Origin: Acidobacteriota bacterium
Lineage (GTDB): Bacteria; Acidobacteriota; Terriglobia; Bryobacterales; Bryobacteraceae
Direction of reading: 5' to 3'
DNA: 64,000 nucleotides
Assembly (NCBI GenBank): GCA_016870995.1
Contig: VFZU01000007.1
Location: forward strand, 1-64,000
Shown here: piece after piece, positions 5,950 through 28,033 of the stretch
Layout: each line of letters starts with the position of its first letter
Position numbering within the stretch: the first letter of the stretch is position 1
Notes under the pieces: model-generated
What the model was told of the DNA's origin: nothing
Databases searched by the model: none
Seen by the model: only the letters and a program-made list of their open reading frames with translations
Made by a program: the position numbers and the translations under genes

Positions 5950-5950
5950 T

Positions 5951-5982
5951 CTACCTTTCATGATAGAATTCATGAAAGGTAG
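5951..5982. promoter_or_regulatory. vapBC operator palindrome with embedded -10 element
   Basis: Two perfect 13-base arms, CTACCTTTCATGA and TCATGAAAGGTAG, flank a 6-base spacer TAGAAT that differs from the consensus -10 TATAAT at one position. A weak -35 (TTAAAT) ends 16 bases before it. The right arm supplies the purine-rich stretch AAAGGTAG just before the vapB ATG at 5988. Autorepression of type II TA operons by antitoxin binding to such palindromes is well established; the assignment to VapB here is inference from position. Confidence 0.75.
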
Positions 5983-5987
5983 AAAGC

Positions 5988-6242
5988 ATGCCGATCAGCA
6001 TTAAGAACGAGGCAACCGAGGAATTGGCTCGTAAGCTCGCCGACCTCACCGGCAAGAGCTTGACGAATACAATTCACGACTCCCTTCAAAAGGAGTACGA
6101 TACAGTGATCTCCGAGCGGTCTGGAAAGGCTTCTGTTGATGAGCTTATGGAGATCGCTCGCCGTTGCGCCAATAGGCCATCACTGACAAATCTCACGGCC
6201 GATGAGATTCTTGGCTACGACGAGTTTGGGCTTCCCACCTAG
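5988..6242 (+). CDS. vapB: VapB family antitoxin (Rv0623-like)
   Basis: 84 residues. The N-terminal half (MPISIKNEATEELARKLADL) fits the ribbon-helix-helix type VapB antitoxins of the PSK_trans_fac/Rv0623 group, which bind their own operator. The C-terminal part (DEILGYDEFGLP) is the usual toxin-wrapping tail. The stop overlaps the toxin start by one base (TAGTG), so translation is coupled. The 32-bp palindrome just upstream is the likely operator. Together with VapC it forms a toxin-antitoxin pair that controls its own expression. Confidence 0.88.
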   Translation: MPISIKNEATEELARKLADLTGKSLTNTIHDSLQKEYDTVISERSGKASVDELMEIARRCANRPSLTNLTADEILGYDEFGLPT

Positions 6243-6634
6243 TGACCATCGACACTTCCGCTTTGATCGCAATCCTGTTCGATGAACCCGAACGCTTGGA
6301 GTTCACCCAGTTGGTCAGCGTCGCGAGCAGAAAGTTAATTTCAACCGTCAGCATTCTTGAGGCCACCATTGTTCTCGAATGCAGAAAAGGCGAGGATGGG
6401 GTCGCCGATTTGGACGCATGGCTTCGCAAGGCAGCGGTTCGTAGCGTGGACTTCGATAGCGATCAATTGGAACTCGCTCGCCGGGCTTCCCACCGCTTTG
6501 GCAAGGGCCGCCACCCGGCCGCCCTTAACTTCGGCGATTGCGCCTCCTACGCCCTCTCCCAATGGAGCGGCGAACCACTCCTCTTCAAGGGCAACGACTT
6601 CACTCTCACCGACGTTCTCCGCGTCCGCTCCTAA
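6242..6634 (+). CDS. vapC: VapC toxin, PIN-domain ribonuclease
   Basis: 130 residues from a GTG start that overlaps the vapB stop. It is a PIN domain of normal length with the acidic metal site intact: Asp4 (TIDTSA), Glu40 (SILEA), Asp99 (NFGDCASYA) and Asp119 (KGNDF). VapC toxins are Mg-dependent endoribonucleases that usually cut tRNA or rRNA; the target cannot be inferred. The gene seems intact, unlike the second VapC near 57 kb. Its 3' end overlaps by four bases the end of the convergent selenoprotein gene. Confidence 0.9.
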   Translation: MTIDTSALIAILFDEPERLEFTQLVSVASRKLISTVSILEATIVLECRKGEDGVADLDAWLRKAAVRSVDFDSDQLELARRASHRFGKGRHPAALNFGDCASYALSQWSGEPLLFKGNDFTLTDVLRVRS

Positions 6635-6972
6635 CCCAACACCTCCCGATACGCCCCCTCCTCAAACCCCACAACCACCGTCTTCCCCTTCCGGAAGGTC
6701 GGTGCCCTAAGGTTCCCCGTCGGCCCCAGCGCCACGGCCAGCACCTCCTCCATCGAAGCGCTCTTCATCGAAAAATGAAGCACCTTCTTCCCCTTCGCGA
6801 CGTAGACATCCGAGGCCGCCCCAAGGATCGCCCGCGCTCCCTCTCCATCAATCGGACGCTTCTTCGCATCCACCTGCTCCACCACCCCAATCTGATGCTT
6901 CGCAAGAAACTCCTGCGTCTTTCCGCAGCTCGTTCAACCAGGGCGATGATAATTCCAATCCACTTTGCTCAT
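6631..6972 (-). CDS. ArsC-like thioredoxin-fold protein with UxxC motif; predicted selenoprotein
   Basis: Reading from the ATG at 6972 gives MSKVDWNYHRPG, then TGA (6936-6934), then TSCGKTQEFLAKH and onward in the same frame to 6631: 113 residues if TGA is read as selenocysteine (Sec13). In the ArsC/Spx-like family this position is the first Cys of the CxxC redox motif (RPGCTSC), so UGA sits exactly where Sec would act; Cys16 is the resolving residue. The cis-Pro region APTFRKGKTVVVGF is intact near the C-terminus. A purine-rich GGAAG precedes the ATG. Downstream of the UGA the mRNA can form a bacterial-SECIS-like hairpin. The genome encodes SelA (26735-28033), which supports Sec decoding. 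An ordinary caller would start after the TGA and lose the active site. The alternative is a nonsense mutation of Cys TGC/TGT to TGA. Confidence 0.75.
6901..6936 (-). promoter_or_regulatory. UGA codon and candidate bacterial SECIS hairpin
   Basis: On the minus strand the UGA is 6936-6934. The following bases can pair as TGC-GGAAA with TTTCT-GCG (one bulged T, two G-U pairs), leaving a 10-base loop whose first base is G, 15 bases after the UGA. This spacing and loop G resemble the known bacterial SECIS pattern. A shorter alternative stem CTGCG/CGCAG (6913-6917 with 6924-6928) with loop GAAAGA is also possible. I folded it by eye only. Confidence 0.45.
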
Positions 6973-26195: not shown

Positions 26196-26753
26196 ATGAT
26201 TGCAGCAACACAAATTCGCCCGGGTATGGTCATCAAGTTCAACAACGACCTTTATTCCGTTTTCACGATGACGCACCGCACTCCGGGCAACCTGCGTGGC
26301 TTCGTGCAGGTCAAGATGCGCAACCTGCGCAGCGGCTCCATGAACGAGCACCGGTTCGCCTCTGAAGACAAGGTCGAAAAGGCCATCATGGACGAGCAGA
26401 AGATGGAGTTCATGTACAAGGACAGCGAGTTCTTCTACTTCATGAACACCGAGAGCTACGAACAGGTGCAATTGTCGGCAGAGTTCATCGGCGATGCCGC
26501 CAACTACATGATCGACAACCTCCCAGTCTCGGTCACCTTTTATGAAGGCCGCCCTATCAGCGTCGAACCGCCGCCCACCGTCGATCTGAAGATCATCGAA
26601 ACCGAACCCGGCCTGCGCACTGGCAGCGTCTCGAACGTCGGCAAAGCCGCCACCCTCGAAACCGGCCTCGTCGTCACCGTTCCTCAGTTCATCGAGCAGG
26701 GCGAGAAGATCCGCGTCAATACTGCCGAAGGCACCTACATGGAGCGCGCGTAA
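26196..26753 (+). CDS. efp: Elongation factor P
   Basis: 185 residues with the three OB/KOW-type domains of EF-P, which relieves ribosome stalling at polyproline. Clear family blocks: IRPGMVIKFNNDLYSV, SGSMNEHRFASEDKVEKA, FYFMNTESYEQ and the C-terminal LKIIETEPGLRTGS...GLVVTVPQFIEQGEKI. At the tip of the first domain the sequence is THRTPGNLRGF; the position that is Lys34 in E. coli (PGK) is Asn32 here, so the usual lysylation site is absent. A TAAAAT at 26174 may be the -10 element. It overlaps selA tail to tail by 19 bases. Confidence 0.95.
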   Translation: MIAATQIRPGMVIKFNNDLYSVFTMTHRTPGNLRGFVQVKMRNLRSGSMNEHRFASEDKVEKAIMDEQKMEFMYKDSEFFYFMNTESYEQVQLSAEFIGDAANYMIDNLPVSVTFYEGRPISVEPPPTVDLKIIETEPGLRTGSVSNVGKAATLETGLVVTVPQFIEQGEKIRVNTAEGTYMERA

Positions 26754-28033
26754 GCATTCACCGACGAGACGATCACCGCATCGTCCTCGGCAAACACCGT
26801 TCTCAGATCAATCAGTAACTGATCCTTTTCAATTCGCGCCACAACCGGAGGGTTGCTGGCGCGAAGGTGTTTTTCAAGGCCCCTCGCCGCGTGCGGCAAC
26901 GCTACCAGCCATGTCGGGATGCTCTGATCTGGCGTCGACCCTCCACCCAGCACGCTCTGCCCCGCCACCACCTTGGCTCCTTCGATCGCCCCGGCCAGAG
27001 CCTCCGCGCGCTCGCGGATCGCATCAATCGGCAGCATCAACATCCTGAGCCCGGGCAGGCTCGCGAAGTCTCCAGCCGTGAGCGACCGCAGCGAATCCGA
27101 AAGAGCCTGCACTGCCAACTTATCCAGCCGCAAGGCCCGATACATCGGGTGTCGCCGGATCTTTGCAATCAACTCGCCGTCCCCCGCGATAATGCCCGCC
27201 TGCGGCCCTCCCAACAACTTGTCGCACGAGAACGAAACCAGATTCACGCCTGCCGCACGACTGTCGGCCACCAGCGGTTCATCCACGCCATAAGGCCGCA
27301 AATCCATCAGGCAGCCGCTGCCAAGATCTTCATACAGAGGAAGGTTCGATTCCTTGGCAAGCCCGGCCAACTGCTTCAATGTCGGCTTGCCCACAAACCC
27401 AGTCTGATGAAAATTACTCGGATGCACCCGCATCAACATCCGCGTATTGGGCCCAATCGCTCGCGAGTAATCATCAAGATTCGTCTTGTTGGTTGCCCCC
27501 ACCTCTTTCAATTTCGCGCCGCTCTGCTCCATGATGTCGGGGATACGAAAGCCATCACCGATCTCAACCAGTTCACTGCGCGAAACCACAACCTCGCCAC
27601 CCTCAGCCAGCGCTCGCAACACCAGATAAGTCGCAGCCGCATTGTTATTCACCGCGATCGCGGCCACCCCAAGCAACTCGGCCAACAAGGGAGCGAAGTG
27701 TTCATCACGCTTGCCGCGCTTGCCTGTGGCCAGATCGTATTCGAGGTTCGAATAACCCGCAACAGGTTCAAACGCCCGCAGCGGTGCACGCCCCAGATTC
27801 GTATGCAGCACCACACCTGTCGCATTGATCACGCGCCGCAACGTCGGCTGCGTCAGCCTCGCAACGCGCCGCGCGATCTCACTCTCAATCTCTTCAAACG
27901 GCAACTCCAGCTCGCGAACATGCTGCAACACATCACGGGCAATCGACAACAGCCGGTCCCGCGCAACGCCAGGATACAGAGGACTGATTTTGCGCAGCAG
28001 CAGATCGACAGAAGGGATTGCCGCGCGATCCAC
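26735..28033 (-). CDS. selA: L-seryl-tRNA(Sec) selenium transferase
   Basis: 432 residues. SelA is the PLP enzyme that converts Ser-tRNA(Sec) to Sec-tRNA(Sec) using selenophosphate. Motifs: RRVINATGVVLHTNLGRAPL, NNNAAATYLVLRAL, SRSELVEIGDGFRIPDIM, GATNKT, MRVHPSNF, YEDLGSG, and SCDKLLGGPQAG with the PLP lysine. Its presence argues that this genome decodes UGA as selenocysteine, consistent with the UxxC gene at 6631-6972. The GTG start overlaps the stop of the upstream PIG-L-type gene by one base (CTAGTG). selB, selC and selD are not in this window. Confidence 0.95.
   Translation of the reverse strand: MDRAAIPSVDLLLRKISPLYPGVARDRLLSIARDVLQHVRELELPFEEIESEIARRVARLTQPTLRRVINATGVVLHTNLGRAPLRAFEPVAGYSNLEYDLATGKRGKRDEHFAPLLAELLGVAAIAVNNNAAATYLVLRALAEGGEVVVSRSELVEIGDGFRIPDIMEQSGAKLKEVGATNKTNLDDYSRAIGPNTRMLMRVHPSNFHQTGFVGKPTLKQLAGLAKESNLPLYEDLGSGCLMDLRPYGVDEPLVADSRAAGVNLVSFSCDKLLGGPQAGIIAGDGELIAKIRRHPMYRALRLDKLAVQALSDSLRSLTAGDFASLPGLRMLMLPIDAIRERAEALAGAIEGAKVVAGQSVLGGGSTPDQSIPTWLVALPHAARGLEKHLRASNPPVVARIEKDQLLIDLRTVFAEDDAVIVSSVNAYARSM

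Follow-up and report, generated by a model that had tools for sequence, protein, structure and literature searches.

The locus and its features

The window analysed here is a 64,000-nucleotide stretch of a contig from a member of the Acidobacteriota (family Bryobacteraceae), and its minus strand carries a gene predicted to encode a small selenoprotein (Table 1). Translation from 6972 to 6631 reads MSKVDWNYHRPG-UGA-TSCGKTQEFLAKHQ...YREVLG, followed by TAG, and this 113-residue frame contains a single in-frame TGA, which opens the active-site motif U-T-S-C; the frame continues past the TGA into a UxxC-type site, as a sequence-only reading of this DNA had proposed. The table 11 listing of open reading frames gives, in this frame, only an 84-aa ORF with a GTG start at 6885, and plain table-11 gene calling truncates the selenoprotein gene. 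The same reading expected standard annotation to miss the active site; this holds for plain table-11 ORF calling, but not for the NCBIfam '(seleno)protein' model NF041106, which recognises the read-through product. No second close copy was found in the same genome, the next match having an E-value of 0.86.

Table 1 Coordinates of the features described in the text
Feature	Position	Strand	Details
ArsC/Spx-like selenoprotein gene (predicted), 113 aa	6631..6972	-	ATG 6972-6970, TAG stop 6633-6631; read-through translation and NF041106 score
In-frame UGA, codon 13, predicted selenocysteine	6934..6936	-	Translation; TGA in 60/60 homologues at DNA level
TGC, Cys16, second residue of the UxxC motif	6925..6927	-	Translation; UxxC 58/60, UxxS 2/60
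Predicted bSECIS hairpin	6901..6917	-	Stem 6917-6912 with 6906-6901; apical loop 6911-6907 (AGUUU), starting 22 nt after the UGA
Competing hairpin, 6928-6924 with 6917-6913	6913..6928	-	Minimum-energy fold of the isolated window RNA; pairing not conserved
vapB, PSK_trans_fac antitoxin	5988-6242	+	Side feature
vapC, PIN toxin	6242-6634	+	4-base overlap with the stop of the selenoprotein gene
selA, L-seryl-tRNA(Sec) selenium transferase	26735..28033	-	468 bits, cut-off 268; not adjacent to the selenoprotein gene

Directly next to the gene lie an M20 peptidase, the vapB/vapC pair and a divergent hydrolase of BD-FAE type; none of these is an arsenic gene. ORFs in the flanks of 60 loci, antisense ones among them, were clustered (flank length no more than 1.5 kb, and up to 4 kb for L070), and among the largest clusters listed the largest was common to 15/60; as no cluster extends beyond 15/60 loci and the clusters are unnamed, the context gives no pathway. 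The vapBC pair separates the selenoprotein gene from the M20 peptidase. Four congeners (L007, L008, L009 and L011) have the end of the peptidase adjoining the selenoprotein gene, and a tblastn search of five congener loci found no vapBC. Upstream of vapB, a 14-bp inverted repeat without mismatches was seen by eye (5950-5963 / 5970-5983) and is a plausible operator.

Conservation of the TGA among homologues

Across 237 genomes of the same family the protein was recovered in 50, comprising 41 good matches (E <= 5.1e-7) and nine distant ones with 23-30% identity. Exactly one in-frame TGA is present in 41/41 of the good matches, two of which are fragments. The NF041106 family is well represented in the phylum, with matches in 83 genomes of a 396-genome sample, 28 of them over the cut-off, and the best 37 of the 83 (E <= 1e-13) again each have exactly one TGA (37/37).

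Sixty homologues were read at the DNA level: 30 from the family search (41 good matches), 29 from the phylum sample (37 best matches), and L070. Left out were 11 family rows and seven phylum rows without a locus, L050, which is the window itself, and L068 and L069, which are duplicates of L029 and L024; the start is the edge of the match and not a start codon in 15/60 rows. All 60 have TGA at the position that aligns with codon 13 of the window gene. The motif reads UxxC in 58 and UxxS in the other two (L048 and L070), and an R-A-P motif is found in every homologue. The terminal stop is itself TGA in 27/60, the window copy ending in TAG. The sequence-only reading had counted relatives without any residue aligned to the UGA as evidence against Sec; instead, close homologues carry TGA there (60/60), and Cys occupies the position in 4/4 of the distant stop-free ArsC/Spx relatives that were read (L094-L097, e.g. 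YQKPNCTTCRKA). Upstream of the UGA, codons 2-12 of the 30 family genes show 728, 877 and 2171 pairwise differences at positions 1, 2 and 3, respectively, and since these differences fall mostly at third positions, translation very likely proceeds in the same frame before the UGA and continues through it.

The distant matches also include sequences of another kind. All 12 that have an in-frame TGA (L082-L093) carry the active-site motif U-T-[ST]-C, and the four stop-free matches that were read, L094-L097, carry C-x-x-C, L097 coming from the window's own family. In an NCBIfam scan of three of the TGA-bearing sequences, L089 passed TIGR01617, L083 and L091 fell below it and none passed NF041106; L083 and L091 pass Pfam ArsC, and L093 carries a TAG too, at its C-terminal end. 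L082-L093 represent a second putative ArsC/Spx-type Sec group that has Cys relatives.

A conserved hairpin downstream of the UGA

The interval 6895-6940, in which the sequence-only reading had placed a SECIS-like fold, contains a conserved and covarying hairpin, CGCAGG-AGUUU-CUUGCG (6917-6901). Rules given for bSECIS elements in the accessible part of PMC13188914 comprise a loop of 3-9 nt, an upper stem of 4-16 bp and a G in the first two loop positions, together with a loop 16-37 nt from the UGA and an MFE <= -7.5 kcal/mol. The hairpin agrees with these rules (PMC13188914, same part): it has a 5-nt loop, six pairs, a G at loop position 2 and a spacing of 22 nt, and its energy is -8.2 kcal/mol when the 11 nt that directly follow the UGA are left out. 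In the whole stretch, another fold has the minimum energy.

The hairpin coincides with a short run of unusual codon constraint. Codon-pair identity is 91% over codons 19-24, against 46% over codons 2-12, 37% over 14-18, 22% over 25-40 and 24% over 41-113. Among the family's 30 genes, wherever the residue is shared, only one codon occurs at each of codon positions 19, 21, 23 and 24 (ACG, GAG, CTT and GCG), and two occur at positions 20 and 22 (split 24/6 and 28/2, respectively). At other sites of these genes, by contrast, conserved Leu and Ala are encoded by four or five different codons.

Pairing was scored on alignment A2, which has 39 columns and contains 42 of the 49 distinct sequences. Within these 42 sequences, to which the figure of 100% pairing applies, the six-pair stem is kept in 252/252 cells, a value reached by 0/500 shuffles. 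Two pairs show two-sided changes (three cells; 1/500 shuffles as high) and a third shows a G-U/A-U change, and RNAalifold returned the same stem with a seventh pair having six two-sided changes and one break. The sequences omitted from A2 (L052, L053, L054, L056, L062, L066 and L067) have a hairpin in another register; L053 and its relatives, for example, form from other bases a stem shifted by one base around the same G27-T28. Taking both registers together, a perfect stem of at least six pairs with a loop spanning bases 27-28 is present in 48/50 distinct sequences, while synonymous shuffles would be expected to give even five or more pairs in only 14.8/50. The shifted-stem group alone is not individually unusual, a fraction of 0.105-0.148 of synonymous shuffles reaching its stem.

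Two sequences just under the NF041106 cut-off in which the TGA is present, L066 and L067, lack the fixed-register hairpin (three pairs) and, folded alone, form other hairpins nearer the UGA, which suggests that the SECIS may have shifted in this branch.

A covariance model of the element, built from sequences that include the window itself, placed its top match in the window at the hairpin site (62 bits, E 1.5e-18; next 15.3 bits) and ranked the same site first in the genome (next 19.1 bits). Rfam returned nothing at gathering scores for the window.

The energy comparison with synonymous shuffles gave a weak signal. Fold energy is only mildly lower than that of synonymous shuffles (mean z -0.89, 5/50 sequences at p<=0.05); five control windows from the same genes gave z of -0.36 to 0.24, with p<=0.05 in 2/57, 3/60, 8/60, 5/59 and 6/53. 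When the whole stretch is folded, the conserved stem exceeds 50% probability in 29/50 sequences, those with the shifted stem being counted as misses in this and the next count. The first 11 nt after the UGA would sit inside the ribosome. With these nucleotides removed, the stem exceeds 50% probability in 42/50, and its mean pair probability in the window is 0.99. The competing hairpin was also considered as a conserved element and rejected: 90.5% of its cells are paired, a level at least matched by 500/500 shuffles, it shows no two-sided change, and its covariation score of 0.098 was reached by 483/500 shuffles.

Sec machinery in this and related genomes

The selA gene that the sequence-only reading had noted about 20 kb from the selenoprotein gene was found there (Table 1). 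The genome further encodes SelB (358 bits, cut-off 242, with a PF09106 match too), SelD (369 bits, cut-off 125) and a tRNA-Sec with anticodon UCA (73.1 bits, cut-off 47), which makes the required set of SelA, SelB, SelD and tRNA-Sec complete. With selB, selC and selD all present, their absence, which the earlier reading had named as a refuting outcome, did not occur.

The SelD gene (L036, G000:C3:70063-70986) has an in-frame TGA of its own near the start, reading MEKRLTAHAKAAGUASK (GUASK). The SelD Sec motif is listed as UxxK in the available part of PMC13188914; the SelD TGA fits this motif, and at least two genes of the genome therefore look Sec-coded, SelD being a likely second selenoprotein.

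Across genomes, the gene and the Sec machinery were compared at two levels. SelB is over the cut-off in 34/41 family genomes with the gene, judged from the best E-values among the matches listed, versus 153/196 without it; SelB is thus common in the family, and presence of the gene does not track it there. In the phylum sample, tRNA-Sec was scored in 35/37 gene carriers versus 260/359 others, a comparison in which relatedness is not controlled and whose cut-off is also reached by a tRNA-Ser (L078, 47.7 bits), so that no weight is placed on it here. Thirty-four of the 37 carriers have a tRNA-Sec match at E <= 1e-11, and the match in G544 (1.4e-9) is ambiguous. The remaining two carriers, G241 and G443, have the gene with its TGA but gave no match at the threshold of that search and no convincing tRNA-Sec, the two best of the weaker matches in each being other tRNAs (Ser and Trp in G241; Gly and Leu in G443). 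Both are draft genomes, listed as 100% and 89% complete, respectively, and a missing contig or an oddly diverged tRNA may lie behind the gap.

Family assignment and predicted fold

For family scoring, the read-through product was used with Cys written for Sec. It matched NF041106 (ArsC_rel_Se_1, 'ArsC family (seleno)protein') over the whole model at 125.8 bits (cut-off 85), and this score above the curated cut-off, together with a single Sec in a UxxC motif, places the protein in that family. The window protein did not reach the Pfam ArsC (PF03960) gathering cut-off of 24 bits, scoring 20.3 (its homologue L068 passes at 37.6 bits), or the curated cut-off of 75.05 bits for the Spx/MgsR model TIGR01617, scoring 25.3. 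TIGR00014 (arsenate reductase) was absent among the seven NCBIfam families that it matched up to E = 1. The best sequence matches among solved structures are the Spx proteins 6ghb, 1z3e and 3gfk (E about 5e-4), in which CTSC aligns with UxxC and with which an L-R-x-P stretch is also common.

Five AlphaFold2 models were built from a 4-sequence alignment (pLDDT 89.7, 84.8, 68.6, 68.4 and 66.0). The best of these (pLDDT 89.7) matched the ArsC-related 3gkx (Z 9.2, 2.6 A over 89), Spx 3ihq (Z 9.0, 2.7 A over 88), Vibrio ArsC 3f0i (Z 8.3, 2.4 A over 90) and an E. coli ArsC mutant, 1sd8 (Z 6.7), with glutaredoxins ranking below the ArsC/Spx entries; Foldseek put Spx-type entries on top, with TM-scores of only about 0.55. 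Z values differing by under 1 were treated as tied, and with the top values tied, fold similarity favours neither Spx nor ArsC. The modelled product is a thioredoxin-fold protein of ArsC/Spx-like type. The ArsC-like label of the sequence-only reading is accordingly right as to superfamily but loose as to 'ArsC', the sequence and fold matches going to Spx and ArsC-related proteins alike.

Decoding of the UGA and possible function

Computation establishes the UGA position, the SECIS-like hairpin, the machinery, the family and the fold. The reading that we favour, at a probability of roughly 0.93, is that UGA13 of this thioredoxin-fold protein of the ArsC/Spx superfamily is decoded as Sec by SelB and tRNA-Sec under the direction of the hairpin, and that the product is a redox protein. 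Sec had also been the proposal of the earlier reading, and it is supported by the TGA in 60/60 homologues, the Sec machinery and the conserved hairpin; none of the three contrary outcomes that it had named (unaligned relatives, a genome without selB/selC/selD, no conserved hairpin after the UGA) occurred.

Were the UGA a real stop, the locus would be an inactivated ArsC-like pseudogene or a truncated gene beginning at the GTG at 6885, as could be taken from the table-11 listing, where the 84-aa GTG ORF is the sole entry for this frame. That 60/60 homologues have TGA at this codon, with coding-type variation on both sides of it, argues strongly against such a decayed or shortened gene, and the 84-aa product would be without strand 1, the active site and helix 1, making this explanation very improbable. 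We give just as little credence to a reading without Sec in which an altered genetic code or a suppressor makes UGA encode a standard amino acid, Trp or Cys: the frame is open whatever residue the UGA gives, but 27/60 of these genes end in a TGA stop, the full Sec machinery is present and the constraint just after the UGA is of the SECIS type.

The function could also be more specific than a general redox role. A true arsenate reductase (ArsC) with a catalytic Sec, acting in arsenic detoxification, would agree with the ArsC superfamily and with fold matches that include Vibrio ArsC (Z 8.3) and the E. coli ArsC mutant (Z 6.7). This is nonetheless unlikely, given a Pfam ArsC score of 20.3 bits against the 24 needed, TIGR00014 unmatched up to E = 1, Spx and ArsC-related entries that rank at least as high, and immediate neighbours that include no arsenic gene. 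The top solved-structure sequence matches (6ghb, 1z3e and 3gfk) and the alignment of UxxC with the Spx CTSC would point towards a redox sensor of Spx type, a regulator binding to RNA polymerase alpha in which Sec would sharpen the sensitivity of the switch. TIGR01617, however, reaches 25.3 of 75 bits, the likeness in fold is common to arsenate reductases and, more weakly, to glutaredoxins, and the second Cys is missing in 2/60; we hold such a regulator to be improbable, somewhat more so than an arsenate reductase.

Returning to Sec decoding, SelB and tRNA-Sec would insert Sec at UGA13, directed by the hairpin whose loop starts 22 nt downstream, and we infer that Sec is actually inserted and takes part in redox chemistry. 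As a selenolate, Sec13 would attack an oxidised substrate (a disulfide, sulfenic acid or oxyanion), the intermediate would be resolved by Cys16 or an external thiol, and the protein would be recycled by a general thiol reductant. Cys16 being Ser in 2/60, a Cys-resolved cycle would not be universal. The nucleophilic Cys of thioredoxins, glutaredoxins, ArsC and Spx sits just before the first helix, and Sec13 lies just before helix 1 in the AlphaFold2 model. Because of this placement, the second Cys in 58/60 and the R-A-P motif in 60/60, our best guess is that the protein may be a small thiol/selenol reductase.

In the family and phylum genomes searched, every close NF041106 member found has Sec and none has Cys; many redox selenoprotein families have common Cys forms. 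The all-Sec close members in these genomes make the family well suited to the question of which roles of Sec are closed to Cys. It is conceivable, if speculative, that NF041106 is a Sec-obligate ArsC/Spx lineage providing a selenium-dependent redox switch or reductase that Cys could not replace, possibly an Spx-like regulator of selenium status.

Comparison with known selenoproteins

A literature search, with most subscription papers beyond its reach, found no functional or biochemical study of NF041106 and nothing on arsenate reductase selenoproteins in Acidobacteria, and ArsC is not mentioned in the accessible portion of PMC12013277. Elsewhere ArsC-type selenoproteins have been catalogued repeatedly. 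In the parts of these sources that were available, the Sargasso Sea paper describes a UxxS arsenate reductase family (PMC1088965), a 2006 survey reports ArsC-like selenoproteins in Deltaproteobacteria (PMC1794560), and the Global Ocean Sampling selenoproteome contains two arsenate reductase groups, UxxS (pfam03960) and UxxC (cd03032) (PMC2398784). Similarly limited views of two reviews give 'Arsenate reductase-like protein, COG1393, UxxC' in 2022 (PMC9312934) and NF041106 as a UxxC family with one Sec in 2026 (PMC13188914).

The window protein has the same UxxC motif and single Sec as NF041106 and the 'Arsenate reductase-like protein, UxxC', and nothing was found in the available text of PMC9312934 and PMC13188914 that sets it apart from them. 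'Arsenate reductase 2' of the Global Ocean Sampling set (cd03032), compared by its description in part of PMC2398784 and not by sequence, is likewise an ArsC-type selenoprotein with UxxC and is likely the same family as NF041106. The Sargasso Sea arsenate reductase selenoproteins (COG1393), as far as the consulted part of PMC1088965 describes them, also belong to the ArsC superfamily and have Sec first in the motif, but differ in being UxxS, and the portion of PMC13188914 at hand lists such proteins apart from NF041106, under TIGR00014. Spx (6ghb, 1z3e, 3gfk) and YffB (1rw1) have the same fold as the window protein, and the position of CxxC/UxxC is common with Spx; the window protein differs from both in having Sec for Cys, aligns structurally at 19-26% identity and scores far under the Spx model cut-offs. 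The window gene is a new member of an already catalogued selenoprotein family, one instance of which is here backed by codon and RNA comparisons.
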